Source: Owenia fusiformis (taxonomy: Eukaryota; Annelida; Polychaeta; Sabellida; Oweniidae). From it: 64,000 nt of DNA. Positions 19,099-55,430 of this stretch are shown here, in pieces. The position numbers and the translations under genes were made by a program. Location: assembly GCA_903813345.2 (NCBI GenBank), contig CAIIXF020000004.1, positions 27,221,985-27,285,984 on the forward strand, written 5' to 3'. Under the pieces are notes generated by a model. It did no database searches and was not told the origin of the DNA. It worked only from the letters and a program-made list of their open reading frames with translations. How positions within the stretch are numbered: the stretch's first letter is position 1; every line of letters begins with the position of its first letter.

Positions 19099-20700
19099 TT
19101 AAACAATTCCCACATCCTTCAGCATCTCAAGTGGTAAAACTTGAAACTTCGAAATTAATGATTTGTATTTTTCAGCAAAGCCCAGAAAGAATTTCTTAAG
19201 CTTTATAGAATTATAACCTTGACCTAACAGTTTGATCACTAAAGTATTGTGTCTTGACTTAAAATCTAAATGTTTAGAGCATGCCCTGCCATATCTAATA
19301 AGCTGGGATACATAGACCCCATATGCTAGATTTAATGGAATATTACTGTCTAAATGGGGAAAATTCACAATATCAAAGTTGAAATCATCTCGTTTATCAT
19401 ACAACTTACAATATATACTGTTGTCTTGTTCAATGTTAATGATAAGGTCAAGATAAGGCGCATTCATGTTCGATTCATTGGTCTTTTTAACTCTAACTTC
19501 GAAGGGTATATCTCATTTACAAAATTTTCAAATCCAGGGTTGTCCAAACTCAACAGGTCATCTATATACCTATCTGTTTTATTAAAAAGTTTAGCTATGT
19601 GGAATTTTGTCTTATCTTTCATCATCTTTTGCAAAAACTTATATTCATATGAGAATAGAAAAAGGTCTGCCAAAAGAGGAGCACAATCTGTCCCCATTGG
19701 TATTCCTATATTTTGACATAAAACAGTATTTCCAAACTTTACATAAATGTTATCAATCAAAAAGCCTAAAACCTCACAAAGTTTTATTGCAGTAAAAGAA
19801 ATAAACTTTTCATGTTGATCACTAGAAAAGAAAGCTCTATTTGAACTACAATTTACGAATTTAAATCTACTACCTTTCATTGTGTTTTTAATGATACCAA
19901 ATATTTCCTCTTTCAATTTGTTATGGGGAATTGATGTGTAAAGTGTGGAAAAATCCCATGTGGAAATACATTTAACTTTTTAATAATTAGGTTGATCAAA
20001 TTTAGATAAAAGGTCCTTCGAATTTTTAAGGATCCACATATGGTTAACCCCAGAATTTCTAAAAATAGCATTACAGTAAGACTCCCTATTATTTTTAACA
20101 GCTTGGAGACACCTAGTCAATAGCCCAGAAACCTTTTTAGTAGAACAAACCCTAGAACCAGCAATAAATCTAGATTTATAAGGGTCTTTATGTAATTTAG
20201 GTATCCAATAAATTTTAGGCAAATGTTCTTGTTTCTCTGTTGGTTTGATCTTGTGTCTAATCAAGAAGTCTAAATGATTTTTGACTATTTCAACTTCATT
20301 AGCATCAACCTTAACATACGTTTTAGTACTTGTATATTTGTTTGAAATGTCCAATTCTGTCATAATAATAGACAAATAGAATTTTTTACATGTAACAATA
20401 ACGTTATTTGACGCTTTGTCTGTTGGGACTAAAACAAATTTTTTATGAAAATTTTCTAAATATTCAACAACTTGAGGGTCATCTAATACCTTGTCATTAG
20501 ATTCAAACTTTTGACCTTTAAGTTTAATTATTTTACTATTAACAATATCTTTGACATTAAGTATCCACTCATCTAATGAAGATTTATCAGCATGCTCACG
20601 TCTAATCCAATCGTTAGCATATTTTTCAACAGCATCAAAATTTTTTTTTTTATATCTCCATAAAATTGTATTCTGTTCACGAAATTTAGGACCTTTTTTA
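19099..20700 (-). pseudogene. Penelope-like reverse transcriptase, inactivated (copy A)
   Basis: On the minus strand the reading starts near 20,700 with IKKGPKFREQ, then LVPTDKASN, then KQEHLPKIYWIPKLHK and RFIAGSR (RT fingers). These are followed by DFSTLYTSIPH, GIPMGTDCAPLLADLFL and the catalytic TDRYIDDLLSL, then KLYDKRDDFNF and YGVYVSQLIRYGRACS. The order and motifs fit an RT family widespread in aquatic invertebrates and close to Penelope-like elements. No GIY-YIG endonuclease is visible. An in-frame stop at about 19,980 follows FDQPNY, and a one-base loss in an A run near 19,480 shifts the frame. About 530 residues are represented. The Penelope assignment is less certain than the RT call. 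Confidence 0.8.
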
Positions 20701-28081: not shown

Positions 28082-28469
28082 AATCAGGAACATAAAATCA
28101 TATACATATTTTTGTTAAATCTAAAAACATTTCGGATCAATGTCATGAATATGACATTCAGAAAGGACAATGTCCTTGGACTTTTTACTTAGCATCATTT
28201 ACACTATGTAAAATCCCATGATTAATACAGTATCATAAACCTATTAAACATACATATCAGTTGTTTTAATTCGTTTTAACCTGTTATCATAGGTTTATGT
28301 ATAAGACATAATTATAACAATGAATGATACGGACTTTTTTGCAGTTTCTCCTCTGATACTTGTATAATTTGTTTTAATTTGTTATCAGCTGTTATCAGCT
28401 GTTATATTCCATCTGGTTCAACTGGGAAAAACATATTATACTGGATGATACATTTCTCTGCTCTTGCGT

Positions 28470-29417
28470 ATAATTTGTTTACATTAGGTTACATGTTGTT
28501 GACACAACATGTTGACACTATCTTGTTGACATAGACATATTGAGTGTTTTGATAAAAGCGGGTATTGATAAATTAAGTTTTGACATTTGAAAGTTGTAAT
28601 GAATTAATATAAATGATTTTTCAAAATAAGTCACCAGAAGTGATTAGTGCAGCAGTTGAAAGATATATTTTAGTTTTACATTTATAACGTGCTTGCAAAA
28701 ACACGGGCGCCCATTTAGATTATTAGCGGTTTTATTATAATATTGGATTGCTTCAATGCGCTCCATGAAAGAAAAATGTGGGCACTTTATTAATTGAAAT
28801 CAATATGTCTTAATATTAAAGCTACATTGTTAACGGAGACAACGTAAGACTTCGACATTTTAACCCATTTCAAAATTCGGTGTTTTTATTTTCCATAACG
28901 GCTACTAGTATTTGTGTGCCATAGTTATCTCAGCTTTCGGGAATCACGGTTATCGTGATTTAAGGGCAGTTATAAAAATATACAAGGCGATGGTTTAAAA
29001 TGGACAATTTTCAAAACTGCTCAACTTCACGTTTTTAAAGAATGCTTGCCCGGCGAGGGGTTTGCTATTGCGAGAGAACAAAAACATTGAATTAGGATTT
29101 TTCCTAATACGTAATCATTAATACTTAATACTTAATCATTAATCAACAACTTTTATAACCGTCTCTCTGATTAAATATCATGCCAATTAAAACCACGATT
29201 GTGTTGACAGGATTAAATGCGATATCTATGGAATAATAATTTAATGAACTCAATAGTCTAAATGATAAATAAGTTCATAATTTAGTCTTGGCTGACTAGT
29301 CTTGTATCATCAGAGTTGGATTGCAAATACCTCCCTAAATCAAATATTTATAATTGTTTTTATGTCTCTGATCCAACCACTAAAGTTTAAAAGGAACACT
29401 ATAGTGTCCCGTGAATT
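28470..29417. other. Left interior of the giant element, nothing recognised
   Basis: AT-rich, without coding potential or identifiable repeats apart from the subterminal motifs near the element end. Confidence 0.4.
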
Positions 29418-31912
29418 TATTAGACTCCAGATTGAAAATCTGGAGTCTATTGTTTTTGCCAGTATTCTTATTATTATTAGACTCCAGATGAAAATCTGGA
29501 GTCTATTGCTTTTGCCAGTTTTCTTATTATTAGACTCCAGATATCAATCTGGAGTCTATTGTTTTTGCCAGTATTCTTATTAGACTCCAGATGAAAATCT
29601 GGAGTCTATTGCTTTTGCCAGTTTTCTTATTATTAGACTCCAGATGAAAATCTGGAGTCTATTGCTTTTGCCAGTTTTCCTATTATTCTTTCTTTCTTTC
29701 TTTCCGAACACTTTTTCTCAGCAACTAGAAGAACTTACTTAAATCTGATAACATAGTCAACTAGGTAATGAAACTTAGTTTCTGGGAAATTAGGTCAAAT
29801 GTTTATCTAGGTCAAAGGTCAAGAACTAGGTCAAATCGTGGGTTCTCACTATTTTACAAGTTTTCTCAGTCGTCCTTCGGTATTTTTGCTCCGGGTTTTT
29901 TTCATCATGTTTCTTAGAAAAAAAGCTAATTCCGTTAGGCAAATCGTTTTTTGATAACTCTTACCGATTTTGAGAAATGACGTCCGAAAAGTAGGTCAGA
30001 ACATAAAAAGTTCTCCAAATTCAACGTGTGAATTATCAAATAAGTGTAGAATTATCTCAGGAATCCGAATCTGCAAACAAAATTTCGATCCGACTACCGG
30101 TTCAGAAGTTATAGCATTTTGAAATCTCAAAATCGCTAAATTTGGTGCCCCATGTTAAGTCAATGGGGAAAAAGACTTCTTCGAAGTGTAAAATACGAGA
30201 TATAGACTGAGTACAGCTTAACGTAATGAAAGCCTATAAAAGAAGGGGACCTCGAAGGCTATCTAGCTTTAAAATTTGGACAGCAAAATGCCTAGGTCAA
30301 AATCTAGGTCAAATTTATAACATTTTCTTATTTTTACGATTCTGACACTACACTTAAATAATTTGCTTCAAAATTTTGTATACAGGTAGCAAAGAGTGTG
30401 CTTATAGTGATAGCCTTTTGCCGTCAGAAAGTATTTTGACCCACTTTTGAGATATGGTGTCCGAAATGTAGGTCAAACTAAAAAGTTAACCAAATTTAAC
30501 ATATGAGCTATGAAATAAGTGTAGAATTTTCTCAGGAATCTGAATCTGCAAACCAAATTCCGATCCGACATCTGGTTCGAAAGTTATGGCGTTTTGAAAA
30601 TTTTGAGAAAAATTGATCTGTTGATATCCTGATAGAAAGTCAAGGAAAAAAGATTTTTTTGAAGTGTAAAATACGAGATATAGATTGAGTACAGCTTAAG
30701 ATAATGAATTCCTATAAAAGAAGGGGACCTCAAAAGCTACCTAGTTTCAATATTTGGACACCAAAATGCCTAGGTCAAAATCTAGGTCAAATTCATAGTT
30801 TTTCCTTATTTTTGCGATTCTGGCACTACACTTTTAGGATTTGCTTCAAAATTTTGTATACCTGTAGCAAAGAGTGGGCTAATAGTGTAAGCTTTTTGCC
30901 GTCAAAGAGTATTTTGACCCACTTTTGAGATATGGTGTCCGAAAAGTAGGTCAAAATAAAAAATTCTCCAAATTTTACATATGAGTTATGAATTAAGAGT
31001 AGAATTTTCTCAGGAATCCGAATCTGCAAACCAAATTTTGATCCGACTTCCGGTTCCAAAGTTGTGGCATGTCCAAAAAGTAGGTCAAAATAAAAATTCG
31101 CCAAATTTAACGTATGAGTTATGAATAAGGGGTAGAATTTTGTCAGGAATCCGAATCTTTAAATCAAATTTCGATCCGACTTCCGGTTTGAAAGTTATGG
31201 CGTTTTGAAATTTCGAGAAAAATCGATCTGATGTTATCCTGATAGAAAGTCAAGGAAAAAAGATTTTTTTGAAGTGTAAAATACGAGATATAGATTGAGT
31301 ACAGCTTAAGATAATGAATTCCTATAAAAGAAGGGCACCCCAAAAGCTACCTAGTTTCAATATTTGGACACCAAAATGCCTAGGTCAAAATCTAGGTCAA
31401 ATTCATAGTTTTTCCTTATTTTTGCGATTCTGGCACTACACTTTTAGGATTTGCTTCAAAATTTTGTATACAGGTAGAAAACAGTGTGCTTATAGTGTTA
31501 CCCTTTTGCCGTCAGAGAGTATTTTGACCCACTTTTGAGATATGGTGTCCGTAAAGTAGGTGAAAATAAAATGAGTTATGAATTAAGGGTAGAATTTTCT
31601 CAGGAATCCAAATCTGCAAACCAAATTTCAATCTGACTTCCGGTCAAAAATTCCTACTAACCTACCTACTTACCTACTCGGCTACCTACTTAGCTACCTA
31701 CTCAGCTACCTACTCAGCTACTTACTCCGCTACCTACTCAGCTACTTACTCAGCTACCTGCTCAGCTGCTCACTCAGCTACCTACTCAGCTACTTACTCA
31801 ATTACTTAATCATCTTCTTACTCAGCTTCCTACTCAGTTACTTACTCAGCTCTTTACTCAGGTAAATCAATCTGGAGTCTTAAATTGAACTTTGTTCAAT
31901 TTACAAATCTAG
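29418..31912 (+). repeat. Helentron-like unit 1 of tandem array (5' end iterated five times)
   Basis: It begins with five head-to-tail copies (about 29,418-29,690) of a 50-60-bp piece carrying the hairpin GACTCCAGAT...ATCTGGAGTC. Three internal submodules of about 0.5-0.6 kb follow, each with GTGTAAAATACGAGATATAG (30,185, 30,663, 31,273), and then a CTACTCAGCTAC minisatellite at 31,655-31,862. The 3' end has TCTGGAGTCT (inverted copy of the 5' motif), the hairpin AAATTGAAC-TTT-GTTCAATTT, six bases, then CTAG followed by T. Hairpin plus CTAG|T with subterminal inverted repeats is the plan of Helentron-associated elements such as DINE-1. Confidence 0.75.
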
Positions 31913-33573
31913 TTATTATTATTATTATTTTTTTTTTTCTTATTCTTCCTCCTTACAAGATTTCTCACCAACTAGAAGAACTTACTTTAAGCTGCTTACA
32001 TGATCAACTAGGGAATGTATCTGGGATTATGGGAAATTAGGTCAAATTTTTATCTAGGTCAAAGGTCAAGAACTAGGTCAAATCCAGTACTTTGTCACTT
32101 TTTCCCATTATCTTGGTCGTCCTTCAATATTTTTGATCCGGTTTTTTTTCATTGTGTTCCTCATAAAAAAGTAGAAAAGCTAGGGTCGATTTAGTTTTTA
32201 GGTATCTCAAACCGATTTCGAGATATCCGTGTCCGAAAACGAGGTCCAAAAAAAAGTTCTCCGAATCCAATGTCCAGGATATCAGTCTTATAGGAAATTT
32301 TCTCAGGATTCCGAATCTGAAAACCAAATTTCGATCTAACTTCCGGTTCAGAAGTTATGGCGTTTTGAAAATTCAAAAATCGCTAAATTTGCTGCCCCAT
32401 GTTAATTCAATGGGAAAAAATATTTTTGAAGTGTAAAATACGAGATATAGACTAAGTACAGCTAAACATAATGGAATCCCATAAAAGAAAGGGACCTCAA
32501 GACCTTCTTTTCATAAAATTTTGGACACCAAAATGCCTAGGTCAAAATCTAGGTCAAATTCAAAGTTTTTCCTTATTTTTGCGATTCTGACACTACAGAT
32601 TAATTATATTCTTCGAAATTTTGTATACATATAGCCAAGAGTGTGCTTATAGTGGTAGCCTTTTGCCGTCAGAAAGTATTTTGACCCACTTTTGAGATAT
32701 GGTGTCCGAAAAGTAGGTCAAAATAAAAATTTCTCCAAACTCAACGTATGAGTTATGAATTAAGAATAGAATTTTCTCAGGAATCCGAATCTGCAAACCA
32801 AATTTCGATCCGATTTCCCGTTCGGAAGTTATGGGGTTTTGAAATTTCGAGAAAAATCGATCTGATGGTATCCTGATAGAAAGTCAAGGAAAAAAGATTT
32901 TTTTGAAGTGTAAAATACGAGATATAGACTTAGTACAGCTTAAGATAATGAATTCCTATAAAAGAAGGGGACCTCAAAAGCTACCTAGTTTCAATATTTG
33001 GACACCAAAATGCCTAGGTCAAAATCTAGGTCAAATTCATAGTTTTTCTTAATTTTTACGATTCTGGCACTACACTTTTAGGATTTGCTTCAAAATTTTG
33101 TATTCAGGTAGAAAAGAGTGTGCTAATAGTGATAGCCTTTTGTCGTCAGAAAGTATTTTGACCCATTTTTGAGATATGGCGTCCTAAAAGTGGGTCAAAA
33201 TAAAAAAATCTCCAAATTTAATGTATGAGTTATGAAATAAGGGTAGAATTTTCCCAGGAATCTGAATCTGCAAACCAAATTTTAATCCGACTTTCGGTCA
33301 AAAATCCCTACTTACCTACCTACCTACATACCTACTCGGCTACCTACTTAGCTACCTACTTCTCGGCTACCTACTCAGCTACCTACTCAGCTACTTACTC
33401 AGCTACCTACTCAGCTGCTTACTCAGCTTCCTTCTCAGCTACCTACTCAGCTACTCACTCAATTACTTAATCATCTACTTACTCAGCTTGCTACTCAGTT
33501 ACTTACTCAGCTACCTACTCAAGTAAATCAATCTGGAGTCTTAAATTGAACTTTGTTCAATTTACAAATCTAG
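31913..33573 (+). repeat. Helentron-like unit 2 (type A)
   Basis: It opens with (TTA)n and poly-T, then CAAGATTTCTCACCAACTAG. Two submodules follow, then a CTACTCAGCTAC minisatellite (about 33,305-33,525), TCTGGAGTCT, the hairpin and CTAG at 33,570-33,573. It lacks the GACTCCAGAT 5' hairpin. It is almost the same as unit 5, which is four units away. Confidence 0.75.
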
Positions 33574-35169
33574 TTATTCTTATTATTCCGTAGCCGTTTT
33601 TTCAGAAACTATAAGGTATCCAGTAAAGACCATTATTCAGTTTATTTAGGTTCAGTATCTAGTTGGTGGGAAATTGGGTCACATTTTTATCTAGGTCAAA
33701 GGTCAAGAACTAGGTCAAATCCAGTACTTTGTCACTTTTTTCGATTTTCTCGGTCGTCCTTCAATATTTTTGATCTGGGTTTTTTTCATTGTGTTCCTCA
33801 TAAAAAAGTAGAAAAGCTAGGGTCGATTTAGTTTTTTGGTATCTCAAACCGATTTCGAGAAATCAGTGTCCGAAAACGAGGTCCAAAAAATAGTTCTCCG
33901 AATCCAATGTCCAGGATATCAGTCTTATAGGGAATTTTCTCAGGATTCCGAATCTGAAAACCAAATTTCGATCTGACTTCCGGTTCAGAAGTTATGGCGT
34001 TTTGAAAATTCAAAAATCGCTAAATTTGGTGCCCCATGTTAATTCAATGGGAAAAAATATTTTTTTGAAGTGTAAAATACGAGATATGGACTAAGCACAG
34101 CTAAACATAATGGAAGCCCATCAAAGAAAGGGACCTCAAGACCTTCTTTTCATAAAAATTTGGACACCAAAATGCCTAGGTCAAAATCTAGGTCAAATTC
34201 ATAGGTTTTCCTTATTTTTTCGATTCTGACACTACACTTCAATAATTTACTTCAAAATTTTGTATACAGATAGGAAAGAGTGTGTTAATAGTGTCAGCCT
34301 TTTTCCGTCAGAAAGTATTTTGACCCACTTTTGAGATATGGTGTCCGAAAAGTAGGTCAAAATAAAAAATTCTCTAAATTTAACGTATGAGTTATGAATT
34401 AAGGGTAGAATTTTCTCAGGAATCCGAATATGCAAACCAAATTTCGATCCGACTTCCGATTTCAAAGTTATGGCGTGTCCAAAAAGTAGGTCAAAATAAA
34501 AATTTGCCAAATTTAACGTATGAGTTATGAATTAAGGGTAGAATTTTGTCAGGAATCCGAATCTTTAAATCGAATTTTGATCCGACTTCCGGTTCGGAAG
34601 TTATGGCGTTTTGAAATTTCGGAAAATCGATCTGATGGTATCCTGATAGAAAGTCAAGAGTAGAGAAGAAAATGTTGAAAAATTCATCCATCCTTCCTAT
34701 CTGATCTTATCCTATCCTTCCTTTCTATCCTTCCTTTGTATCTTTTCCTTCCTATCCTTCCTTTCCTCTCCTATAATATCCTTTCTTCCTATTCTGTTCT
34801 ATCCTATCCTTCTTTCTTATTCTATCCTATCGTTCCTTCCTATTCTGTCCTATCCTACCTTCCTATTTTATCGATCCATCTTTTTCTGAATGACTCAGCT
34901 TATTCTAGATGACTCGGCTTATTCTAGATGACTCGGCTTATTCTAGATGACTCGGCTTATTCTAGATGACTCGGCTTATTCTGGATGACTCGGCTTATTC
35001 TGGATGACTAGGCTTATTCCATCCACCCATCCATCTTTTTCTGGATGACTCAGCTTATTTTGATGACTCAGCTTATTCTGGATGACTCGGCTTATTCTGT
35101 ATGACTGGGCTAAAAAAAAGTCTAGATCTGGAGTCTGAAATTGAACTTCGTTCAATTTCCAAAGTCTAG
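33574..35169 (+). repeat. Helentron-like unit 3 (type B)
   Basis: It has a different opening (AACTATAAGGTATCCAGTAA), shared with unit 7. Its minisatellites are a pyrimidine-rich CTATCCTTCCTT tract (34,685-34,860) and GATGACTCGGCTTATTCT repeats (about 34,890-35,110). It ends with GAAATTGAAC-TTC-GTTCAATTTC and CTAG at 35,166-35,169. Confidence 0.75.
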
Positions 35170-37002
35170 TTATTATTAGACTCCAGATGAAATCTGGAGT
35201 CTATTGTTTTCGTCAGTTTTCTTATTATTATTCTTCTTATTATTATTCTATCCCAGTTTTCTCAATAACCATAAGGTCTTCAGTAAAGTCAATCATTTGG
35301 TCAATTTAGGTTCAGTATCTAGTTCTCTGGAAATTGGGTCAAATTTTTATCTAGGTCAAAGGTCAAGAACTAGGTCAAATCTAGTACTTTGTCACTTTTT
35401 TCGATTTTCTCGGTCGTCCTTCAATATTTTTGATCCGGGTTTTTTTCATTGTGTTCCTTATAAAAAAGTAGGAAACCTAGGGTCGATTTACTTTTTTGAT
35501 ATCTCAAACCGATTTCGAGATATCAGTGTCCGAAAACGAGGTCCAAAAAAAAGTTCTTCTAATCAAATGTCCAGGATATTAGTCTTATAGGAAATTTTCT
35601 CAGGATTCCGAATCTGAAAACCAAATTCGAATCAGACTTCCAGTTCGGAAGTTATGGCGTTTTGAAAGCTCAAAAATCGCTAAATTTGGTGCCCATGTTA
35701 AGTCAATGGGAAAAAAGATTTTTTTGAGGTGAAAAATACGAAATATAGACTGAGTTCAGCTAAATATAATGAAAGCTTTTAAAAGAATGGGACCTCAAAA
35801 GACATCTAGCTTTAAAATTTGGACACCAAAATGCCTAGGTCAAAATCTAGGTCAAATTCAAAGTTTTTCCTTATTTTTGCTATTCTGACACTACAGATTA
35901 ATTATATTCTTCGAAATTTTGTATACATGTAGCCAAGAGTGCGCTAATAGTGTTAGCCTTTTGCCGTCAGAAAGTATTTTGCCCCACTTTTGAGATATGG
36001 TGTCCGAAAAGTAGGTCAAAATAAAAAATTCTTCAAATTTAATGTGTGTGTTATGAACTAAGTATAGAATTTTCTCAGGAATCCGAATCTGCAAACCAAA
36101 TTTCAATCCGACTTCCGGTTCGGAAGTTATGACATTTTGAAAGCTCAAAAATCACTAAATTTGGTGCCCCATGTTATGTCAATGGGAAAAAATATTTTCT
36201 TGAAGTGTAAAATACGAGATATAGACTAAGTACAGCTTAAAATAATGAAAGCCTATGAAAGAAGTGAACCTCGAAGGCCACCTAACTTCAAAATTTGGAC
36301 ACCAAAATCCCTAGGTCAAAATCTAGGTCAAATTCATAGTTTATCCTTATTTTTGCGATTCTGACACTACACTTTAATTATATTCCTCGAAATTGTGTAT
36401 ACATGTAGCCAAGAGTGTGCTAATAGCATTAGCCCTTTGCCGTCAGAAAGTATTTTGATCCGACTTCCGGTTCCGAAGTTATGACGTGTCCGAAAAGTAG
36501 GTCAAAATAAAATTCGCCAAATTTAACGTATGAGTTATGAATTAGGGGTAGAATTTTGTCAAGAATCCGAATCTTTAAATCAAATTTCGATCCGACTCCC
36601 GGTTCGGAAGTTATGGCGTTTTGAAATTTCAAGAAAAATCGATCTGATGGTATCCTGATAGAAAGTCAAGAGTAGAGAAGAAAATATTGAAAAATGCATC
36701 CATCCTTCCTTTCTGATCCTATCCTATCCTTCCTATCTACCCTTGCTTTGTATCCTCTCCTTCCTATTCTATCCCTTCTTCCTATTCTATTCTATCCTTT
36801 CCTATTCTATCCTATCGTTCCTTCCTATTCTATCCTATCCTTCCTTCCTTTTTCATCCATCCTTCCTTTTTCATCCATCCATCCTTCTTTTTCTTGATGA
36901 CTTAGCTTATTTTGGATGACTTGACTTATTCTGGATGACTCAGCTAAAAAAAAGTCTAGATCTGGAGTCTGAAATTGAACTCGTTCAATTTCCAAAATCT
37001 AG
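35170..37002 (+). repeat. Helentron-like unit 4 (type B, with 5' hairpin)
   Basis: It starts with TAGACTCCAGATG...ATCTGGAGTCTA, so the 5' subterminal inverted repeat is intact. Two submodules, a CTATCC-type tract (about 36,695-36,895) and a short GATGACTT run follow. It ends with hairpin GAAATTGAAC-TC-GTTCAATTTC and CTAG at 36,999-37,002. It is the most complete single unit with both ends. Confidence 0.75.
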
Positions 37003-38644
37003 TTATTATTTTTTTTTTCTTATTCTTCCTCCTTACAAGATTTCTCACCAACTAGAAGAACTTACCTTAAGCTGCTTACATGATCAACTAGGGAATGTAT
37101 CTGGGATTATGGGAAATTAGGTCAAATTTTTATCTAGGTCAAAGGTCAAGAACTAGGTCAAATCCAGTACTTTGTCACTTTTTCCCATTATCTTGGTCGT
37201 CCTTCAATATTTTTGATCCGGTTTTTTTTCATTGTGTTCCTCATAAAAAAGTAGATAAGCTAGGGTCGATTTAGTTTTTTGGTATCTCAAGCCGATTTCG
37301 AGATATCCGTGTCCGAAAACGAGGTCCAAAAAAAAGTTCTCTGAATCCAATGTCCAGGATATCAGTCTTATAGGAAATTTTCTCAGGATTCCAAATCTGA
37401 AAACCAAATTTCGATCTGACTTCCGGTTCAGAAGTTATGGCGTTTTGAAATTCAAAAATCGCTAAATTTGGTGCCCCATGTTAATTCAATGGGAAAAAAA
37501 TATTTTTTTGAAGTGTAAAATACGAGATATAGACTAAGTACAGCTAAACATAATGGAATCCCATAAAAGAAAGGGACCTCAAGACCTTCTTTTCATAAAA
37601 TTTTGGACACCAAAATGCCTAGGTCAAAATCTAGGTCAAATTTAAAGTTTTTCCTTATTTTTGCGATTCTGACACTACAGATTAATTATATTCTTCAAAA
37701 TTTTGTATACATATAGCCAAGAGTGTGCTTATAGTGGTAGCCTTTTGCCGTCAGAAAGTATTTTGACCCACTTTTGAGATATGGTGTCCGAAAAGTAAGT
37801 CAAAATAAAAATTTCTCCAAACTCAACGTATGAGTTATGAATTAAGGATAGAATTTTCTCAGGAATCCGAATCTACAAACCAAATTTCGATCCGACTTCC
37901 CGTTCGGAAGTTATGGGGTTTTGAAATTTCGAGAAAAATCGATCTGATGGTATCCTGATAGAAAGTCAAGGAAAAAAGATTTTTTTTGAAGTGTAAAATA
38001 CGAGATATAGACTGAGTACAGCTTAAGATAATGAATTCCTATAAAAGAAGGGGACCTCAAAAGCTACCTAGTTTCAATATTTGGACACCAAAATGCCTAG
38101 GTCAAAATCTAGGTCAAATTCATAGTTTTTCTTTATTTTTACGATTCTGGCACTACACTTTTAGGATTTGCTTCAAAATTTTGTATACAGGTAGAAAAGA
38201 GTGTGCTAATAGTAATAGCCTTTTGCCGTCAGAAAGTATTTTGACCCATTTTTGAGATATGGCGTCCTAAAAGTGGGTCAAAATAAAAAAATCTCCAAAT
38301 TTAATGTATGAGTTATGAAATAAGGGTAGAATTTTCCCAGGAATCTGAATCTGCAAACCAAATTTTAATCCGACTTTCGGTCAAAAATTCCTACTTACCT
38401 ACCTACCTACATACCTACTCGGCTACCTACTTAGCTACCTACTTCTCGGCTACCTACTCAGCTACTTACTCAGCTACCTACTCAGCTGCTTACTCAGCTT
38501 CCTTCTCAGCTACCTACTCAGCTACTCACTCAATTACTTAATCATCTACTTACTCAGCTTGCTACTCAGTTACTTACTCAGCTACCTACTCAAGTAAATC
38601 AATCTGGAGTCTTAAATTGAACTTTGTTCAATTTACAAATCTAG
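37003..38644 (+). repeat. Helentron-like unit 5 (type A)
   Basis: Nearly the same as unit 2 through its opening, both submodules and the CTACTCAGCTAC minisatellite (about 38,395-38,595). It ends with CTAG at 38,641-38,644. Confidence 0.75.
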
Positions 38645-40504
38645 TTATTATTATTTTTTTTCTTATTCTTCCTCCTTACAAGATTTCTCACCAACTAGAA
38701 AAACTTACTTTAAGCTGCTTATATGATCAACTAGGGAATGTATCTGGGATTATGGGAAATTAGGTCAAATTTTTATCTAGGTCAAAGGTCAAGAACTAGG
38801 TCAAATCAAGTACTTTGTCACTTTTTCCCATTATCTCGGTCGTCCTTCAATATTTTTGATCCAGGTTTTTTTCATTGTGTTCCTCATAAAAAAGTAGAAA
38901 AGCTAGGGTCGATTTAGTTTTTTGGTATCTCAAACCGATTTCGAGATATCAGTGTCCGAAAACGAGGTCCAAAAAAAAGTTCTCCCAATTCAATGTCCAC
39001 GCTACTGGTCTTGTAGGAAATTTTCTCAGGATTCCGAATCTGAAAACCAAATTTCGATCCGACTTCCGGTTCGGAAGTTATATCGTTTTGAAAGCTCAAA
39101 AATCGCTAAATTTGGTGCCTATGTTAAGTCAATGGGAAAAAAGATTTTTTTGAAGTGAAAAATACGAAATATAGACTGAGTTCAGCTAAATATAATGGAA
39201 GCTTTTAAAAGAAGGGGACCTGAAAAGCCATCTAGCTTAAAAATTTGGACACAAAAATGCCAAGGTCAAAATCTAGGTCAAATTCAAAGTTTTTCCTTAT
39301 TTTTGCGATTCTGACACTACACTTTAATTATATTCTTCGAAATCGTGTATACATGTAGCCAAGAGTGTGCTAATAGTGTTAGCCTTTTGCCGTCAGGAAG
39401 TATTTTGACCCACTTTTGAGATATGGTGTCCCAAAAGTAGGTCAAAATAAAAATTCTTCAAATTTAACTTATGAGTTATGAATCAGGGGTAGAATTTTGT
39501 CAGGAATCGGAATCTGCAAACCATATTTCGATCCGACTTCCGGTTCGGAAGTTATGGCGTGTCCAAAAAGTAGGTCAAAATAAAAAAAATTCTAAATTTA
39601 ACGTATGAGTTATGAATTAGGGGTAGAATTTTATCAGGAATCCGAATCTGCAAACCAAATCTCGATTCGACATCTTGTTCAGAAGTTATGATGTTTTGAA
39701 AGCTCAAAAATCGCTAAATTTGGTGCCCCATGTTAAATCAATGGGACCGAATAATTTTTTGAAGTGTAAAAATACAAGATATAGAATGAGTACAGCTAAA
39801 CATAATGAAAGCCCATAAAAGAAGGGGACCTCAAAAGCTACTTTCCTTCAAAATTTGGACACCAAAATACCTAGTTCAAAATCTAGGTCAAATTCTTAGT
39901 TTTTTCTTATTTTTGCAATTCGGACACTACACTTCAATGATATTCTTCGAAATTTTGTATACATGTAGCAAAGAGTGTGCTTATAATGTTAACTTTTTGC
40001 CGTCAAGAAGTTTTTAGGCCCACTTTTGAGATCTGGTGATCGAAATGTAGGTCAAAATAAAAAGTTCTCCAAATTTAACGTATGAGTTATGAATTAGGGG
40101 CATAATTTCCTAAGGAATCCGGATCTGAAATTAAAATTGCAATCGGACCCCCGGTTAAGATTCTAAGCCATTTTGAAGTTTGAAATTCGCACTTGCCAGT
40201 ATTCACGATGCAGATTGATCAAATAAACTTTCAAAAAGTCCTACATACCCTACTTTACCTCCCTACCTACTCAGCTACTTATTTGACTACTTACTCAATT
40301 GCTTAATTAGTTATTACTTACTTAGCTACTTACTCAGCTACTAACTCAGCTTTTTACCCAGTTACTTACTCAGCTACTTACTCAACTACTACTAAGGTAC
40401 TTACTCAACTAATTACTCAGTTACTTACTCAGCTCTTTACTGATCTATCTAGGTCAAATAAATCTGGAGTCTTAAATTGAACTTGTTCAATTTCACAAAT
40501 CTAG
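38645..40504 (+). repeat. Helentron-like unit 6 (type A, diverged)
   Basis: It shares the opening of units 2 and 5, but later submodules and the ACTCAGCTACTTACTC minisatellite (about 40,245-40,440) are more diverged. It ends with AAATTGAACTTGTTCAATTT and CTAG at 40,501-40,504. Confidence 0.72.
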
Positions 40505-41922
40505 TTATTATTATTATTCTTTGGGAGTTTTTTCAATAACTATTAGGTATCCAGTAAGGACCATAATACAGTTTATTTAGGTTCAGTATCTAGTTGGTGG
40601 GAAATTGGGTCAAATTTTTATCTAGGTCAAAGGTCAAGAACTAGGTCAAATCCAGTACTTTGTCACTTTTTTCGATTTTCTCGGTTGTCCTTCAATATTT
40701 TCGATCCGGGTTTTTTTCATTGTGTTCCTTATAAAAAAGTAGGAAATCTAGGGTCGATTTAGTTTTTTGATATCTCAAACCGATTTCGAGATATCAGTGT
40801 CCGAAAACGAGGTCCAAAAAAAAGTTCTCCGAATCGAATGTCCAGGATATTAGTCTTATGGGAAATTTTCTCAGGATTCCGAATCTGAAAACGAAATTTA
40901 GATCAGACTTCCGGTTCTGAAGTTATGGCGTTTTGAAAATTCAAAAATCGCTAAATTTTTAGCCCATGTTAAGTCAATGGGAAAAAATATTTTTTTGAAG
41001 TGAAAAATACGAAATATAGACTAAGTTCAGCTAAATATAATGAAAGCTTTTAAAAGAATGGAACCTCAAAAGCCATCTAGCCTTAAAATTTGGACACCAA
41101 AATGCCTAGGTCAAAATCTAGGTCAAATTCAAAGTTTTTTCTTATTTTTGCGATTCTGACACTACACTTTAATTATATTCTTCGAAATTGTGTATACATG
41201 TAGCCAAGAGTGTGCTAATAGCGTTAGCCTTTTGCCGTCAGAAAGTATTTTGACCCACTTTTGAGATATGGTGTCCGAAAAGTAGGTCAAAATAAAAAGT
41301 TCTCCAAATTTAACGTTTGAGTTATGAATTAAGAATAGAATTTTCTCAGAAATCCGAATCTGCAAACCAAATTTCGATCCGACTTCCGGTTCTGAAGTTA
41401 TGGCGTGTCCAAAAAGTAGGTCAAAATAAAAATTTGCCAAATTTAATGTATGAGTTATGAATTAGGGGTAGAATTTTGTCAGGAATCCGAATCTTTAAAT
41501 CAAATTTAGATCCGACTTCCAATTCGGAAGTTATGGTTGTTCGAAATTTCGGAAAATCGATCTGATGTTGTCCTGATAGAAAGTCAAGAGTAGAGAAGAA
41601 AATATTGAAAAATTCATCCATCCTTCCTATCTGATCCTATCCTATCCTATCTTTCCTTCGTATCCTTTCCTTCCTATCCTTTCCTTCCTATCCTCTCCTA
41701 TCATATCCTTTCTTCCTATTCTGTTCTACCCCATCCTTCTTTCTTATTCTATCCTATCGTTCCTTCCCATTCTATCCTATCCTACCTTCCTGTTTTATCC
41801 ATCCATCTTATTCTGGATGATTCAGCTTATTCTGGATGACTCGGCTTATTTTGGATGACTGGGCTTAAAAAAGTCTGGATCTGGAGTCTGAAATTGAACT
41901 TCGTTCAATTTCCCAAGTCTAG
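40505..41922 (+). repeat. Helentron-like unit 7 (type B), end of array
   Basis: It opens like unit 3, carries one full submodule, CTATCC-type (about 41,617-41,800) and GGATGACTCGGCTTATTT repeats, and ends with AAATTGAACTTCGTTCAATTT and CTAG at 41,919-41,922. No further unit follows. Confidence 0.75.
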
Positions 41923-43952
41923 TTATAATTATCTTAGACAATAATGAAGCGGTACAATCGTGGGAGTGTTAATTAATCGGAATGCAAGTTTGATACAAAA
42001 TAACTCCTTTGGATCAAATATTTAAATTTTACTAGAGTGCGGGGGGGGGTGGAAACGAGTCTCCATGCAAGCACTTAATATCAAAAGAAAGATTTCAGTA
42101 CCCCTTGACTTCGCTCCCGGACTTCACTATTCACCACCTCCCCTCCCCCTTCCCCAATTATCTTTTATGACCCCAGATTGTTCGTTTCTGTGCCCCCCCC
42201 CCCCCCCTGTCCATGGCAAGTAAGTAATCTATGTGTATATCGGCTCCCTCCCAATGGTGGGCAAAACCAGATGCAGGCATAGAGATTGACAAGGTGAGGG
42301 GATTAAAAATAAAAATAGTTTTGTTTTAGAGGCAGAAATAATTCCTAGATGACCTGTCTTTACTGTAATCAAGATGCTACCTAACCGCAGTTTTAAAAGT
42401 TATTTATCTTTTGTGATAATCTAATACTACTTATAGATTGGTTTTCCAAATGTAAGACCCCGTATAAGACCCTTGTCTCTGATTGTGAAACATGTGTATG
42501 CATCAAATCCGAGGAATATTACATTATGTGAAACAGTTCCAAAATGTTTTGTCTTGAACTTAATCAAATAGCAATATATTTCAACATGTGGAAATTGTTT
42601 ATTAAAGTAATGTCGGGCACTATAGGTGAACGGGTTTTCAGTTTTGCAATAAATCCATGCATATCCAATTGTAGCAATCATACGGCCAGACCAGGGGAAC
42701 ACAGATACCCTTCGTATTCTTACATTGTCTGCATGTCAACCATACGGCGACCGCACGGTCAGCCTGCCTTTCGCACCTCTCATACACGTGTAAAAATTCT
42801 AAGATCACATTGATTCCTCGTTTTCAATCCCTGGTTTTCAAAGCCCGTTAGATGTTAATGAATGGAGATTTTTAAATGTGCTTTCATTAAACAGCCAGGA
42901 AAAATAAACTATTTTTCATTTCCCAGGAATCACATAATCCGTCAAAATTCATTTAATTTAAAATGTACCTAATATATTACATGTATACAATCAGACAGAC
43001 TGGCTATTCTAATCCGTTATGAAAAGCCATTTGTTTTTTCCTCTACAGGATGTTTCTGCGGAAGTTAATTTGTTTATCTTAGTGTTTAGAGGCAATGTCC
43101 TTTGACGCTTTCGTGAAATAAATGAACTCTGTGATGGACTACAATTGTATATTTTTACAGGAACAGTTACCCGAAGTAAACCACTGTTACATTATTTTCA
43201 TTTTAGGTCTCTCTAATTAGTTGTACTTATACCCGTAGCCAAGGGGGGGGGGGGGTGTTCAAGGAGTCCAACTCAACAGAATTCGAATTGAATACAAAAT
43301 AAATTCATAACATATAAATATATAAATACATAATGTCTATCCAAGTCTTCTTGCATTTTCTGAACTTCAAATGCGCCTTTTGATGTGTGATAACAAAATA
43401 CTAAATAAATACTTAATGTTACTCCAGCTTGTTTTAATAGTAATTTGGCAATTAAACATGCATAATGTGTGTACTGTGTACAACCCGAATCCTCTCCCGA
43501 TCAGGTCACGTTTTATATTTCTCTGATGTAATAACTGCCCTGTCAACCCTCACGCATTAGGCGTGATTGTTACGCATTTGCTGGAAAAATAGAAATCACG
43601 CATCAATTTAGCGTGTATGATCAAATATCACGCAAATCAAGGATTTTGTTGAAATTTTTAAAAATCGTTTTTTGTGAAATGCCGACACGGTAAAATACCG
43701 AACGGCGAAAAAAGCGAACGAATTCCGTTCGGTCTTTGCATGCGCTTGCCGTTTATTTGATTGAAATCATTCAAATCAAAGTTGGCATTCGAGAACAAAA
43801 ATGTGTCCAGTCAAAAATAGATTTCTAATGTTTGATTTTGAGTAGTTGTATTTATTGATCCTTGTTTTTCAATCTACAGATGGTTCACTGAATTCCGAAG
43901 TAAACAGAAAATAATAAACATTTCCTTGGTTCCCATGATACTGCTTATAACC
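41923..43952. other. Right interior of the giant element: poly-G/C tracts, no gene
   Basis: Contains long G or C homopolymers (about 42,040, 42,196 and 43,242). Phrases at about 42,480-42,540 and 42,990-43,120 recur in diverged form at about 45,950 and 45,480-45,620, so this DNA holds old internal duplications. No domain is recognised in its short open frames. Confidence 0.4.
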
Positions 43953-44134
43953 CAGGCCCGTAGCCAGGATTTGCCAAGGGGGGGGGCAGTTTTCAAAAAT
44001 GTCTAGGGGGTTCACATTTGACAATTTTGGTCCAAATATGGCTAAAATCACACGAGAAATGCTCAAAATGGTGAAAAACTGCATGATTTTGAAAGAATCT
44101 TTGGCCAGGCCCCCCCCCCCCGGATACGGGCCTG
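43953..44134. mobile_element. Short hAT-like inverted-repeat element
   Basis: The left end CAGGCCCGTAGCCAGG and the reverse complement of the right end CAGGCCCGTATCCGGG match at 14 of 16 positions. The flanks TTATAAC/CTATAAC suggest an imperfect 8-bp duplication. It is G-rich inside on the left and C-rich on the right. Confidence 0.6.
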
Positions 44135-44426
44135 CCTATAACCTATAATACTCATTTATTAAAACAAATATTAATTTATCCGTCTGTCTGATTAGATTTT
44201 GTTCCCTGACTCAAACCAGAGACATATAAAACATATATATTTTATATGTCTCTGCTCAAACAAAGTCAACCCCGATTTCAGTTCTTAATTCTTCACTTGA
44301 AACGATATAGCCAACATGATACAACATGAATTTGGATTCATTATACATATATAAAGCCTGTTGTTATCAAAACCCATAAATCCTCACCATATAAATATAG
44401 TTTTATTGATGACCAAAAACAGATAT

Positions 44427-44625
44427 CAGGGGCGTAGCCAGCTTTCAGTCAGGGGGGAGGGGGTGCGATCGCCAAAAAGATTTCGGTTTTCAGTCAGGAG
44501 GGTACGATTGTGGCCTGAGCATCATTTTAAAGCTCCTTTCTTCTTCTTTCTCAGGGTTTTATTGTTAAGGGGGGGGGTTGTGATGGGTGCGATCGCACAA
44601 CCCCCCCCCCTGGATACGCCCACGG
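44427..44625. mobile_element. Second short CAGGGGCGTAGCCAG element
   Basis: The left end CAGGGGCGTAGCCAG pairs imperfectly with the right end CTGGATACGCCCACGG. GATAT occurs on both sides. It contains GTGCGATCGC twice and long G and C runs. It is related to the element at 43,953; a further lone CAGGGGCGTAGCAAAC end lies at about 46,331. Confidence 0.5.
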
Positions 44626-46470
44626 ATATTTTGGCAACTTCCACGTTTACCCCCCCCTAATCATTTTTGCTCCCCCTCTAAATATCAGACCAATCAGGCG
44701 ATGAGGCATGGATCAGGATACCCTGACTCCCAAGCTGTGCGACTTCTGGCAACCGCTTCACCTATATTCCCGGGGGAAATGCTTTTTCCTTTGAAAAATT
44801 ATCAAATATGGTCGTGTGTGGGCAAACACGGAGGAGGAGGAGAGGGGTGCGTGCATTGCGTGCGATCCCTCATCAGTTGTGTAATATTTATTTCTGTTTT
44901 CAAATGAAATAATTTCACCCTTGCCCAATTGGCTATAATGCGCGAATCAAATAGCATGGAGATCAGATAATTAGATTGATTCGTTTTTTCGCAATCAGAT
45001 GAATTAACTTATTGTTTTCTCTGATTAAAAGGCGGTTTGAAGCTACTTTTATAGGATTTGTAAATTCGCAATCAGACTGGCTTATTTTAATATTTAGTCA
45101 GTGCAAGAGGAGGGGACTATAATGTAGAAAATCGTTTTGATTTCGACACTAACTGAAATAGTTTATCACAATAAATTGTTAAATACGGAAACAGAGATCG
45201 GTTTAAAAATGAAGAGAGGCAAAAAACTCTATTTATACAATGTTATTAAAACCCGGGAATTAAAAGCAATTTTAGACTGTTAGATCTTCTGTAATCGAGG
45301 TGATGTTGGTACACTGCCACCGTTAGAAAAACAAAGACTAAGACAAAGACTATATAGCAATTAATCCTTTTGTAATCATTAAATGTTAAATGTAGATTCT
45401 TATTATTTCGTTGGACAATGTTCAGACTTCTGACCAAGATTTATTCATTTATGTTTGTATTTAAAAAATAGTATTTCAATCAGACAGACGTTCTAATGAG
45501 TTAAAAAAATACATTTGTCCATCACCTCTCAAGAAGTTTTCAAAAGTAATCAAGTTGATTTGTTTATTTTAGTGTTTAGCATTGTTTTTCATAACTTGAC
45601 GCTTCCATGAACAGAATGACTTTGAAATGAGTATTTATAATTTTAGCTTTTATACGACATGCTTATTGTATATTTCTATATGAACGTTGTAGTTATGTGA
45701 TGTAACATCGCCCCCCCCCCCCCCCAAATTACAGGTATACAACTTTTGGTCGGAATACTTTAACTTGCGATTAAAAGCAATTTTAGACTGTTAGATGATC
45801 TTTTATGTAATCTAGGTGATGTTGGTAGACTTCCCCAGTTAAGAAAACAAAGACTTAAGACAAAGAGAACTATATAGCAATAATCCTTTTGTTATCACTA
45901 AATGTTAGATTCTTTATTGGACAATATTTTGACTTCTGTCTCCGATTGTTATGCAGATATGTGTATATAATCATGTGAACAACATATTACGTGGAAATTC
46001 CCATATTCATTCTCATAATGTCTTACAGCTATTTCGCAAATGACATGCATGTAAGCCTAAATAACATGTGGACGTAATATTGCAGAACTGAGCGAAAAGA
46101 AAGGTTGAACAAATTAGATTAAGATATTTTATTTTTTAAATGCACAAAGGGCAACAGTTGAAGAGCAAAAATTAAAGGCATTGTGAAATAGATCGTGCTT
46201 TTGTATGATCCTCTTCTATAGTGCCCTACCCTTTGTATTCGTTGACTTCACTTCTTAAAAGAGAGTTTCGTCTTCTCGTAGTATATAACTAGACTCTGCA
46301 CGTAGCGTAATAGTGCCCCTATTAGCCATGTACAGGGGCGTAGCAAACTTGGGGGGGGTAAGCGATTGCCAAAAAAACAATATGGGATTTCAGTCTGAGA
46401 CAAATGGTCAAACATGAGTTTCAAAAAACTTCTAGAATTACCTTATGTAAATATTTACGTTAGCTTGTTT
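44626..46470. repeat. Diverged internal duplication in the giant element
   Basis: The phrase TTAAAAGCAATTTTAGACTG with its following ~150 bp occurs at about 45,258-45,425 and again at about 45,771-45,940. A C15 run lies at about 45,711. No coding sequence recognised. Confidence 0.55.
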
Positions 46471-46885
46471 AATTAAGGTCTGACGTTATGAAAACAAAGT
46501 GCCATTAATTTCTTAACCGTATAATACAGTATCATCTGTTTGGTCTCGGTATATTCCAGTTTAATTTGTATTATACAAAAAATGATATGTATAATTTGTA
46601 TTATACCACTTTGAAACCTGTTATAATAGAAAATGATATGCGTATAATACTGTTTAATCTGATCCTGACTTAAATTATATCAGGTTAAACTGGAATATAT
46701 TTTGGTTTAATCGGGTATCATTCTCTAATGATATTTGAGTCCGGATCAGATGTTATAATATTGAATGATACTTTCTGTGATATTGGATTAAACAACAAAT
46801 TAAACATCAATATAAGATGTTATCACAAGTATTAATCATAGGATTTTACATAGTGTTATTAGACATTGACCATAATTAGACTTAA

Positions 46886-47366: not shown

Positions 47367-47780
47367 CTATCTAGAATAGATTATCATAAAAGAGGTTACA
47401 GGCTCACTACTAACTGACAGGCCCTCTTTTTGGACATAAGAACTTACTCCTGTAGATTTGTCATTCATAACTTTCTAAACATGTGGGTATTTTTATTATT
47501 ATTAATTATCTTGGAAAAATAATTTAGCAAATATCTGACAGCTTATTATCCTATCCAACAAATTGTGTGAGGGTGGAGACATCATCCATTATAAACACAC
47601 ATCAAGTCATGTAATCTGTGTTGAATGGTGAGTGGTCTCGTTGATGGGACCTTGGAGACAAAGTCTAGTGTCTAAGCTTCCCCAAACCATCATCAGTGAT
47701 CATGTGACACGAGGGTGATATTAGTGTGTCAACTCCTAATGTCATTTTTGTAGAAAAGGTCGGACATCCCAATCCGCAGA
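47367..47780. repeat. Continuation of duplicated flank, then unique DNA
   Basis: From CTATCTAGAATAGATTATCA to about 47,552 this matches 62,161-62,185 plus 63,845-64,000, so the segmental duplication runs off the window end. About 47,553-47,780 has no counterpart inside the window. No gene. Confidence 0.8.
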
Positions 47781-48334
47781 CGTCCGTAAGTACGTCCGTC
47801 CGCAAGTACGTCCGTCCGCAAGTACGTCCGTCCGCAAGTACGTCCGTCCGCAAGTACGTCCGTCCGCAAGTACGTCCGTCCGCAAGTACGTCCGTCCGCA
47901 AGTACGTCCGTCCGCAAGTACGTCCTTAAGTCCGTCCGTAAGTATGGGCGTCCGTAAGTACATCTCTCCATCCATCCGTAAGTATGTGCGTCCGTCCGTA
48001 AGTATGTGCGTCCGTCCGTAAGTATGTGCGTCCGTAAGTATGTGCGTCCGTCCATCCGTAAGTACGTGCGACCGTCTGTCCGTAAGTACGTGCATCCGTA
48101 AGTACGTGCGTCCGTCCGTAAGTATGTGTGTCCGTCCGTAAGTACGTGCGTCTGTCCGTAAGTACGTGCGTCCGTCCGTCCGTAAGTACGTGCGTCCGTC
48201 CGTCCGTAAGTATGTGCGTCCGTCCGTAAGTACGTGCGTCCGTCCGTAAGTACGTGCGTCCGTCCGTAAGTACGTGCGTCCGCCCATCTGTAAGTATGTG
48301 CGTCCGTCCATCTGTAAGTATGTGCGTCCGTCCG
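47781..48334. repeat. GTCCGTCCGYAAGTAC minisatellite
   Basis: The left part (47,785-47,930) is a near-perfect 16-bp repeat, GTCCGTCCGCAAGTAC. The right part is a looser GTCCGTAAGTRYGTGC version, and a further short patch lies at 48,500-48,555. Because 16 is not a multiple of three and stops are absent, long frames stay open on both strands (for example 47,742-48,311 minus). They are a by-product of the repeat, not genes. Confidence 0.85.
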
Positions 48335-48559
48335 ACTAAAACGTTATACCCACCTATGCCCAGTCACAAGCCTGTGGACCCTGCTTTTATATCTAATGTG
48401 GATTTTTATCTTACCAATCATGACTTAAATATTAATATGGGTATTTCCCATAATTAATATATACTGAATTTTAACTTTCCAAATATGACTTCAATATTAA
48501 GTATGTGCGTCCGTAAGTATGTGCGTCCGTTAGTACGTGCGTCCGTCCATCCAGGCAAT

Positions 48560-53918: not shown

Positions 53919-55430
53919 TTAAACAATTCCCACATCCTTCAGCATCTCAAGCTTTATAGAATTATAACCTTGACCTAACAGTTTGATCACTAAAGTATTG
54001 TGTCTTGACTTAAAATCTAAATATTTAGAGCATGCCCTGCCATATCTAATAAGCTGGGATACATAGACCCGATATGCTGGATTTAATGGAATATTATTGT
54101 CTAAATGGGAAAAATTCACAATATCAAAGTTGAAATCATCTCATTTATCATACAACTTACAATATATACTGTTGTCTTGTTCAATGTTAATGAGAAGGTC
54201 AAGATAAGGCGCATTCATGTTCGATTCATTGGTCTTTTTTAACTCTAACTCCGAAGGGTATATCTCATTTACAAATTTTCAAATCCAGGGTTGTCCAAAC
54301 TCAACAGGTCATCTATATTCCTATCTGTTTTATTAAAAAGTTTAGCTATGTGGAATTTTGTCTTATCTTTCATCATCTTTTGCAAAAACTTATATTCATA
54401 CGAGAATAGAAAAAGGTCTGCCAAAAGAGGAGCACAATCTGTCCCCATTGGTATTCCTATATTTTGACGTAAAACAGTATTTCCAAACTTTACATAAATG
54501 TTATCAATCAAAAAGCCTAAAACCTCACAAAGTTGTATTGCAGTAAAAGAAATATACTTTTCATGTTGATCACTAGAAAAGAAAGCTCTATTTGAACTAC
54601 AATTTACGAATTTAAATCTACTACCTTTCATTGTGTTTTTAATGATACCAAATATTTCCTCTTTCAATTTGTTATGGGGAATTGATGTGTAAAGTGTGGA
54701 AAAATCCCATGTGGAAATACATTTAACTTTTGAATAATTAGGTTGATCAAATTTAGATAAAAGGTCCTTCAAATTTTTAAGGACTACATATGGTTAACCC
54801 CAGAATTTCTAAAAATAGCATTACAGTAAGACTTCCTATTATTTTTAACAGCTTGGAGACACCTAGGCAATAGCCAAGAAACCTTTTTAGTAGAACAAAC
54901 CCTAGAACCAGCAATAAATCTAGATTCATAAGGGCCTTTATGTAATTTAGGTATCCAATAAATTTTAGGCAAATGTTCTTGTTTCTCTGTTGGTTTGATC
55001 TTGTGTCTAATCAAGAAGTCTAAATGATTTTTGACTATTTCAACTTCATTAGCATCAACCTTAACATACGTTTTAGTACTTGTATTTTTGTTTGAAATGT
55101 CCAATTCTGTCATAATAATAGACAAGTAGAATTTTTTACATATAACAATAACTTTATTTGACGCTTTGTCTGCTGGGACTAACAAATTTTCTAAATATTC
55201 AACAACTTGAGGGTCATCTAATACCTTGTCATTAGATTCAAACTTTTGACCTCTAAGTTTAATTATTCTACTATTAACAATATCTTTGACTTTAAGTATC
55301 CACTCATCTAATGAAGATTTATCAGCATGCTCATGTCTAATGCAATCATTAGCATATTTTTCAACAGCATCAAAAAATTTTTTTTATTATATCTCCATAA
55401 AATTGGATTCTGTTCATGAAATAGGACCTT
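53919..55430 (-). pseudogene. Penelope-like reverse transcriptase, inactivated (copy B)
   Basis: Same motif order as copy A: LVPADKASN, KQEHLPKIYWIPKLHK, DFSTLYTSIPH and GIPMGTDCAPLLADLFL. The lesions differ. The catalytic block reads NIDDLL instead of YIDDLL. A one-base loss near 54,275 shifts the frame after DNPGFEN. A short deletion removes the HKKF region before LVPADKASN. About 50 nt near the 3' end of the coding region (after NSIKL) are missing. The stop found in copy A is absent here. Confidence 0.8.

Follow-up and report, generated by a model that had tools for sequence, protein, structure and literature searches.

Mirror-ordered arrays of Helentron-type elements in Owenia fusiformis and their probable origin by nested insertion

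Introduction

Canonical Helitrons begin with TC at the 5' end and carry no subterminal inverted repeats. They insert between A and T (PMC4067079). In the Helentron-associated elements (HINEs, of the DINE-1 type), as described in the same paper (Thomas et al. 2014), the subterminal inverted repeats are short, measuring 12-15 bp in those of mites, the 5' repeat being palindromic and near the end and the 3' repeat lying 38-60 bp from the end; they also have a 3' palindrome, a TT target with empty sites, and a non-coding interior with microsatellites or tandem repeats. Here we describe an array of seven elements in a 64-kb stretch (G000:C4:27221985-27285984; hereafter the window) of the 498-Mb genome of the annelid Owenia fusiformis. 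The units resemble HINEs in all these features, with repeats of 11 bp, and differ in two respects: they end in CTAG, which PMC4067079 gives for a Helitron-like proto-Helentron of Phytophthora, and they appear to be nested in their own TTATT-rich tract, whereas that paper ties tandem clusters to bypassed termination.

The oyster element Cg_HINE (PMC7492417) is comparable in its 5' subterminal inverted repeat (subTIR) of 11-12 bp with an inverted copy and a microsatellite, in its core of tandem repeats, and in its 3' subTIR with a palindrome. According to that paper the oyster microsatellite consists mostly of 4-nt motifs such as GTCY, whereas that of O. fusiformis is TTATT-like, which is the make-up of the target itself; the word 'nested' is absent from the text of that paper (word search).

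Nesting as such is already known. For Fusarium Helitrons, PMC5148889 proposes self-insertion as the source of multiple 5' ends and describes a single nested case besides several elements with more than one 5' end; for a triple tandem in Metarhizium it leaves open whether two insertions into the 5' end or a rolling circle were responsible. In maize, 17.6% of one Helitron group have multiple 5' termini, and a nesting path was hypothesised (PMC3288121). The O. fusiformis arrays share with these accounts the apparent nesting and the several 5' ends, and differ from them in scale, with tens of arrays open to parsing, and in that insertion can be told from rolling circle by class order. Tandem truncated Helitrons of plants (Xiong et al., as summarised in the review PMC12628747) also form arrays, many with several 5' ends; as summarised there, the units are truncated, many arrays have a single 3' end, and rolling-circle replication is held responsible, whereas the units described here keep their 3' ends and have their 5' modules in front. 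For Drosophila transposon dimers the same review gives insertion-site preference as what is held to be the major route. Mirror-ordered arrays showing nesting at scale were not found in our search of the open-access literature, most subscription papers being outside its scope.

Results

Anatomy of the array and of solitary copies

The initial annotation had described seven consecutive units with a common 3' end, and all seven termini were located. They lie head to tail on the plus strand (Table 1), each followed directly by TT, in an array spanning 29,422-41,922; the 3' end consists of ATCTGGAGTCT, a TTGAAC..GTTCAA hairpin and CTAG before the TT. This exact pattern had no match in 50 Markov-simulated 64-kb sequences. 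The opposite 5' motif had been reported for two units. Two units do carry it, and in detail the window contains six complete 5' hairpin modules of the form AGACTCCAGAT-n-ATCTGGAGTCT, five of which are stacked at 29422-29660. The remaining inner units start with TTATT directly after CTAG and have no module. Module 1 with its TT, the only module folded, gave a hairpin (z -6.31), and the z values of three 3' ends were -2.26, -2.99 and -3.70.

Between a TT on either side, each element begins with a 5' hairpin module and its class-specific spacer (about 20 bp). A tract rich in TTATT and a non-coding body (roughly 1.3-2.7 kb) come next, and the 3' subterminal repeat, the hairpin and CTAG complete it. 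The 5' subterminal repeat with its adjacent inverted copy follows TT (TT + AGACTCCAGAT-n-ATCTGGAGTCT), in agreement with the 2-4 nt from the end expected of HINEs. At the other terminus ATCTGGAGTCT starts 43-44 bp from the end, within the 38-60 bp expected of HINEs, and is followed by the palindromic stem. No open reading frame (ORF) of at least 130 aa is listed for the array; its units contain the TTATT tract as a microsatellite and tandem repeats, of which those of 133 and 477 bp predominate. The Helentron-associated anatomy proposed at the outset was thereby borne out, and the units fit non-autonomous Helentron-type elements (HINEs), as judged from their sequence. A canonical Helitron was ruled out by the TT target and the subterminal repeats.

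Genome-wide, the exact 3' end occurs in 2,851 copies and the exact 5' module in 2,567, and reversed controls of both gave no match. CTAG followed by TTATT and, within at most 10 bases, by a module was found at 312 places. Twelve apparently isolated 3' ends were fetched. Nine of them had a module at the expected 5' position (eight initially, and L009 after extension). As for the other three, in L013 sequence of a second family precedes the body, with a module-spacer match in front of that; in L014 another body follows; and in L010 the stretch examined contained no module. The nine solo copies share the start and end bases of the array, with host DNA outside. Both termini could be read at 19 loci (10 arrays and nine solos; the flank of L016 was counted from its second, complete module), and at all of these the left flank ends in TT and the right flank begins with TT. 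The left flank ends in ATT in 16 of the 19, and the right flank begins with TTAT in 16 of the 19. It had been anticipated that solitary copies with the same ends would be found beside T with CTAG at the end, and the nine solos with their TT flanks agree with this.

Array-free site and host element

CACTA elements have CACTA-type inverted ends, a 3-bp duplication and a CACTA transposase. The array lies between CACTATG.. inverted repeats at 28202-28228 and 46829-46855, which differ by one mismatch and are flanked on both sides by TTA, in keeping with its earlier placement inside a CACTA-like DNA transposon. No ORF of at least 130 aa, and no transposase ORF, was seen in the ORF listing of this copy, in which exons were not modelled; the host is therefore called CACTA-like by its termini only.

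When the 122 bases to the left and the 117 bases to the right of the array were joined and used as a query, the join was spanned by all 40 scored paralogous matches (the best 40 of 222 candidates; 84-99% identity), 22 of which were exactly two bases shorter than the query stretch covered. Each of the four array-free copies that were fetched has one TT where the filled site has TT on each side. The sequence comparison thus identifies the array as an insertion into a host repeat.

Stacking of 5' modules at array fronts

Exact 3' ends (E) and modules (M) were scanned for clusters in the first 25.6 Mb of contig C1. There were 48 clusters, 44 of which contain an end. In 15 of them there are two or more ends, 71 altogether, accompanied by 69 modules; a module comes first in all 15, and no opposite-strand feature of either list lies inside them. 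Their transitions were EE 45, MM 43, ME 26 and EM 11. Balanced strings include MMEE (twice), MMMEEE, MMMMEEEE and MMMEMMMMEEEEEMEE; module-poor ones MMEEEE, MMMMEEEEEEE and MMMEEEE; module-rich ones MMMEE, MMMEMEE, MMMMEE and MMMMMEEEE. One cluster (array D2) reads MEME. Single-end clusters read ME (14), E (12) or MME (3).

The largest array, A (C1:22590008-22643127), is split into two clusters (balances +5 and -6) by a satellite of some 10 kb in its middle; a fuller parse gave 24 modules and 25 bodies. This satellite (C1:22612752-22622780; L032-L033) consists of 717-bp units, those read being alike, each of which opens with a GATTTTTGC..GCAAAAATC hairpin; the units share part of the same body and have no CTAG between them. 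Being homogeneous, it is a better candidate for rolling-circle growth than the nested array around it.

Order of module and body classes

Module classes were defined on the 15 nt of spacer that follow the hairpin, and body classes on the 75 nt that precede a common anchor. To assign module class from body class, a map was learned solely from solos and from modules directly preceding a body (32 pairs), and was applied to bodies without a module directly in front. One false 3' end (array H), the 717-bp satellite (array A) and a second element family, X (array E), were excluded before counting. Read by class, the window runs a b a b b / B / A / g G / B / B / A, which is a mirror order except for one missing module, that of W6.

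For the first 11 arrays the nested pairing was 30, the maximum allowed by class composition in each array; module shuffles gave a mean of 25.4 and a maximum of 29, and none of 2,000 reached 30. The four mixed-class arrays (W, A, E and F) gave a nested pairing of 22, which was reached by none of 2,000 module shuffles and by two of 2,000 body shuffles. With J and K added, the set comprised 13 arrays with 42 non-adjacent modules and 51 non-adjacent bodies; 10 arrays offer any pair, while D1, D2 and (before a class was added) I offer none. Non-crossing class-matched pairing was then 33 out of the 33 possible by class. None of 5,000 module shuffles attained this value (they averaged 27.8 and went no higher than 32), one of 5,000 body shuffles did, and when each stack was reversed the pairing fell to 25. 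Inclusion of body class rv with module class c, a pair defined after array J had been seen, gave 37 of 38, with 0 of 5,000 in both shuffles.

Predictions for arrays B, H and I preceded the fetching of array fronts. Those for J and K also preceded fetching, at a point where hairpin loops and 3' end types were already known, and were not wholly blind. Two of the five predictions were correct (H, K), two partly so (B, J) and one was wrong (I). For K, the order b g b / B / G / B was predicted and found. For H, about equal numbers of modules and bodies were predicted, and four of each were found, all of class b and so without order information. About eight front modules in mirror order were predicted for B; four were found, all b, and the predicted t was absent. 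Array J was predicted to start k b b b b and to end in K. The spacers found were k c c c t, and the K body was present, followed by one more body without a recognisable end.

Relatedness of units

W2 and W5 are 97.7% identical, though two other units stand between them. Among the units compared, W6 is closest (95.6%) to B2, a unit of an array on another contig, and A8 and B6, which lie in different arrays, are 99.5% identical. Units of a single array differ in 3' end and body start, and they represent different subfamilies. When best matches were determined for 52 units of eight arrays (the first unit of each array left out), the neighbour was the best match for four units, against the 1.7 that equal chances for all units would give. 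For most units the closest relative lies outside their own array.

The W2/W3 junction had a best non-self match of 93% over 241 bases (best 40 of 2,191 candidates scored). As no scored relative exceeded this value, there is no sign of recent block copying of the array, and a recently block-copied array was rejected as unsupported.

Search for an autonomous partner

PF14214 (Helitron_like_N) gave 58 matches genome-wide, on C13, C515, C505 and other contigs, several of them sharing one small contig (four on C515). Thirty-three lie in open frames of more than 2,400 aa, and two that were sampled also have a PIF1 helicase. An autonomous Rep-helicase element with the same termini, expected from the initial annotation, did not turn up: the family terminus was absent from the 3' flanks of nine Rep/helicase representatives (among L001-L007 and L024-L031), and no exact 3' end or module was found within 75 kb of C1:4667175 or C1:21115714. 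In a BLAST of the units against these loci (25 of 26 rows inspected), L013 and L016, in which other repeats lie, were the sole source of long matches; the rest were short.

Other features of the window

Two similar ORF pairs lie on the minus strand at 19464-20375 and 54269-55185. One ORF of each pair was scanned; similarity to reverse transcriptase was weak, with E values of 3.3e-4 and 4.7e-4 that fall short of the Pfam cut-off. Just outside the CACTA-like element, at 47742-48546, is a CGTCCGTAAGTA-type minisatellite with a repetitive 189-aa minus-strand ORF.

Table 1. Features of the array and its host element in the window (modules are assigned to bodies by class, under nested insertion)
Feature	Position	Strand	Remarks
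CACTA-like host element carrying the array	28202..46855	.	27-bp inverted ends, 1 mismatch; TTA on both sides
TT at 5' boundary of array	29420..29421	+	one TT in empty site, one per side in filled site
5' hairpin module 1, class a	29422..29448	+	outermost; assigned to body W7, the putative founder
5' hairpin module 2, class b	29479..29504	+	assigned to body W5
5' hairpin module 3, class a	29532..29557	+	assigned to body W3
5' hairpin module 4, class b	29582..29607	+	assigned to body W2
5' hairpin module 5, class b	29635..29660	+	adjoins body W1 on its 5' side
Unit W1: spacer, tract and body	29661..31912	+	3' end 31870-31912
Unit W2, TTATT tract at start, no module	31913..33573	+	3' end 33531-33573; 97.7% identity to W5
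Unit W3, no module	33574..35169	+	3' end 35126-35169
Unit W4, own module	35170..37002	+	3' end 36960-37002
5' hairpin module 6, class g	35178..35202	+	adjoins body W4 on its 5' side
Unit W5, no module	37003..38644	+	3' end 38602-38644
Unit W6, no module	38645..40504	+	3' end 40462-40504; no class-matching module left over
Unit W7	40505..41922	+	3' end 41879-41922; founder's body if insertion was nested

Discussion

With the ends, the TT target, the empty site, the mixed subfamilies, the front-stacking and the mirror order observed, the array very probably arose by insertion of non-autonomous Helentron-type elements (HINEs) into one another. The target is TT, usually within ATTAT, so that the TTATT tract behind the 5' module is a dense and oriented target, and copies would enter it in one orientation. 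A new element in the tract of an older one would give the order old module, new module, new body, CTAG, TTATT with the old body, CTAG. After repeated rounds, modules would pile up at the front and bodies would follow behind in mirror order, all in one orientation, giving the look of a tandem array. We infer this sequence of events, no intermediate having been observed. Mobilisation would occur in trans by a Helentron Rep/helicase, slippage among near-identical modules may have removed those that are missing, and what is recognised is presumably the tract and not the module.

Several observations weigh against nested insertion. Module and body counts are unequal in arrays B (4/8), I (2/4), F (3/4), A (24/25) and G (4/3) and in the window (6/7); for I, where about equal numbers had been predicted, the prediction failed. 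The class map is imperfect (27 of 32 on leave-one-out), the classes are coarse, and the arrays sampled beyond that of the window all lie on C1. Under the original map no class partner was found for nine of the 42 non-adjacent modules and 18 of the 51 non-adjacent bodies, one pair position in array E among them; arrays composed entirely of class b give no order information. In array J the module classes were not those predicted, and one crossing remains with the added rv-c class (37 of 38). Best matches from the same array (18 of 52 units, 11.5 expected) and from the neighbour (four, 1.7 expected) both exceed expectation, and therefore some within-array copying exists. One adjacent pair, F3 and F4 (the 21.2-Mb array on C1, L041), is 99.93% identical with one shared module and supplies two of the four neighbour best matches; this dimer possibly arose by read-through or recent unequal exchange.

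Tandem growth by rolling-circle read-through had been suggested initially, with replication bypassing CTAG repeatedly and the multimer inserting as one piece; bypassed termination is the cause that PMC4067079 considers for the tandem Helitron clusters of bat and silkworm. Exact junctions of CTAG to tract and the single orientation are in line with such a concatemer, as is the F3/F4 pair. It is most improbable as the main process: different subfamilies occur within one array, the neighbour is the best match in so few cases, the W2/W3 junction has no scored relative above 93% elsewhere, and read-through does not predict front-stacked modules in mirror order. F3/F4 is dimer-like. On another view the array is an ordinary satellite, shaped by unequal crossing-over or gene conversion, with ends that are incidental. 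Such exchange could draw on the homology of the internal 133/477-bp repeats and the repeated modules, and may explain module losses, F3/F4 and the excess of same-array best matches. As the origin of the arrays it has next to no probability in our estimate, given the nine solos with exactly the same ends and host DNA outside, the array-free site in every scored paralogous match (40/40, best 40 of 222), and neighbours that are mostly not homogenised.

Serial insertion beside older copies, in the TTATT right after the previous CTAG, would account for the 312 such junctions genome-wide and for array D2. It predicts MEME.. strings, yet EM transitions numbered 11 against 43 for MM and 45 for EE, and classes stand in mirror order with the modules in front stacks. 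We regard it as very unlikely to have built the arrays, and it may have acted alongside nesting. Front stacks could also be tandem duplicates of modules, or composites that transposed with more than one 5' end, and have no relation to the bodies that follow; solo L011 indeed has two same-class modules, three single-end clusters read MME, and transposition with two 5' ends has been proposed in the Fusarium work (PMC5148889). Against this, stacks mix classes and mirror the bodies downstream, modules about equal ends in the multi-unit clusters (69 and 71), and a mixed-class stack before a single body was seen in none of the nine complete solos. There is little chance that this is the general explanation; it may account for surplus modules.

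If nested insertion into the tract is accepted, one may ask how strongly elements favour their own tracts. In the nine solos the tract behind the module has a mean length of 35 nt and 2.9 ATTAT sites, and TTATTATT is present in all nine. Outside these elements 23 such tracts were counted in 136 kb on both strands, that is, about 84,000 when scaled to the genome, as against about 2,851 element tracts. Further cluster members make up 56 of the 100 ends listed on C1 (57 if both halves of A are one array); below 19.93 Mb on C1, 50 exact ends fall into 28 clusters, 22 being further members. Sixty merged tracts of at least 14 nt comprised 19 near a module or end and 41 elsewhere; one of the 19 was judged a host tract outside an array, and generic tracts were thus occupied in one of 42 cases. 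These figures are only suggestive of self-targeting beyond mere tract preference, as insertion shortens the tract occupied and survival may differ. Slippage loss of modules and better survival in arrays could both bias the tract and cluster figures.

The second family, X, has a AGAATGCCG..CGGCATTCT module, a TTATT tract, a GAAATCGCC..GGCGATTT hairpin and CTAG before TT, and is Helentron-like with other ends. It sits in tracts of the first family in array E (L039-L040, oriented ~3052-4589) and in L013, and has a relative in L005. The tract is therefore at least a shared target.

We tentatively suggest that the tract may be a built-in landing pad, by which elements supply the target that they prefer and direct new copies into old ones, sparing the rest of the genome. 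The arrays would then be a nested-bracket record of insertion order, and at least one other Helentron-like family would use the pad.

A rolling-circle origin is often assumed for tandem Helitron arrays. As modules and bodies can be assigned to classes in the present arrays, insertion order can be read from the sequence, and the two models, self-insertion and rolling circle, separate. Such arrays would show concretely how a dispersed transposon can come to form satellite-like arrays, and would provide a natural experiment on target choice. The parsing rule would also change how they are annotated, as many nested elements and not as units of one satellite.

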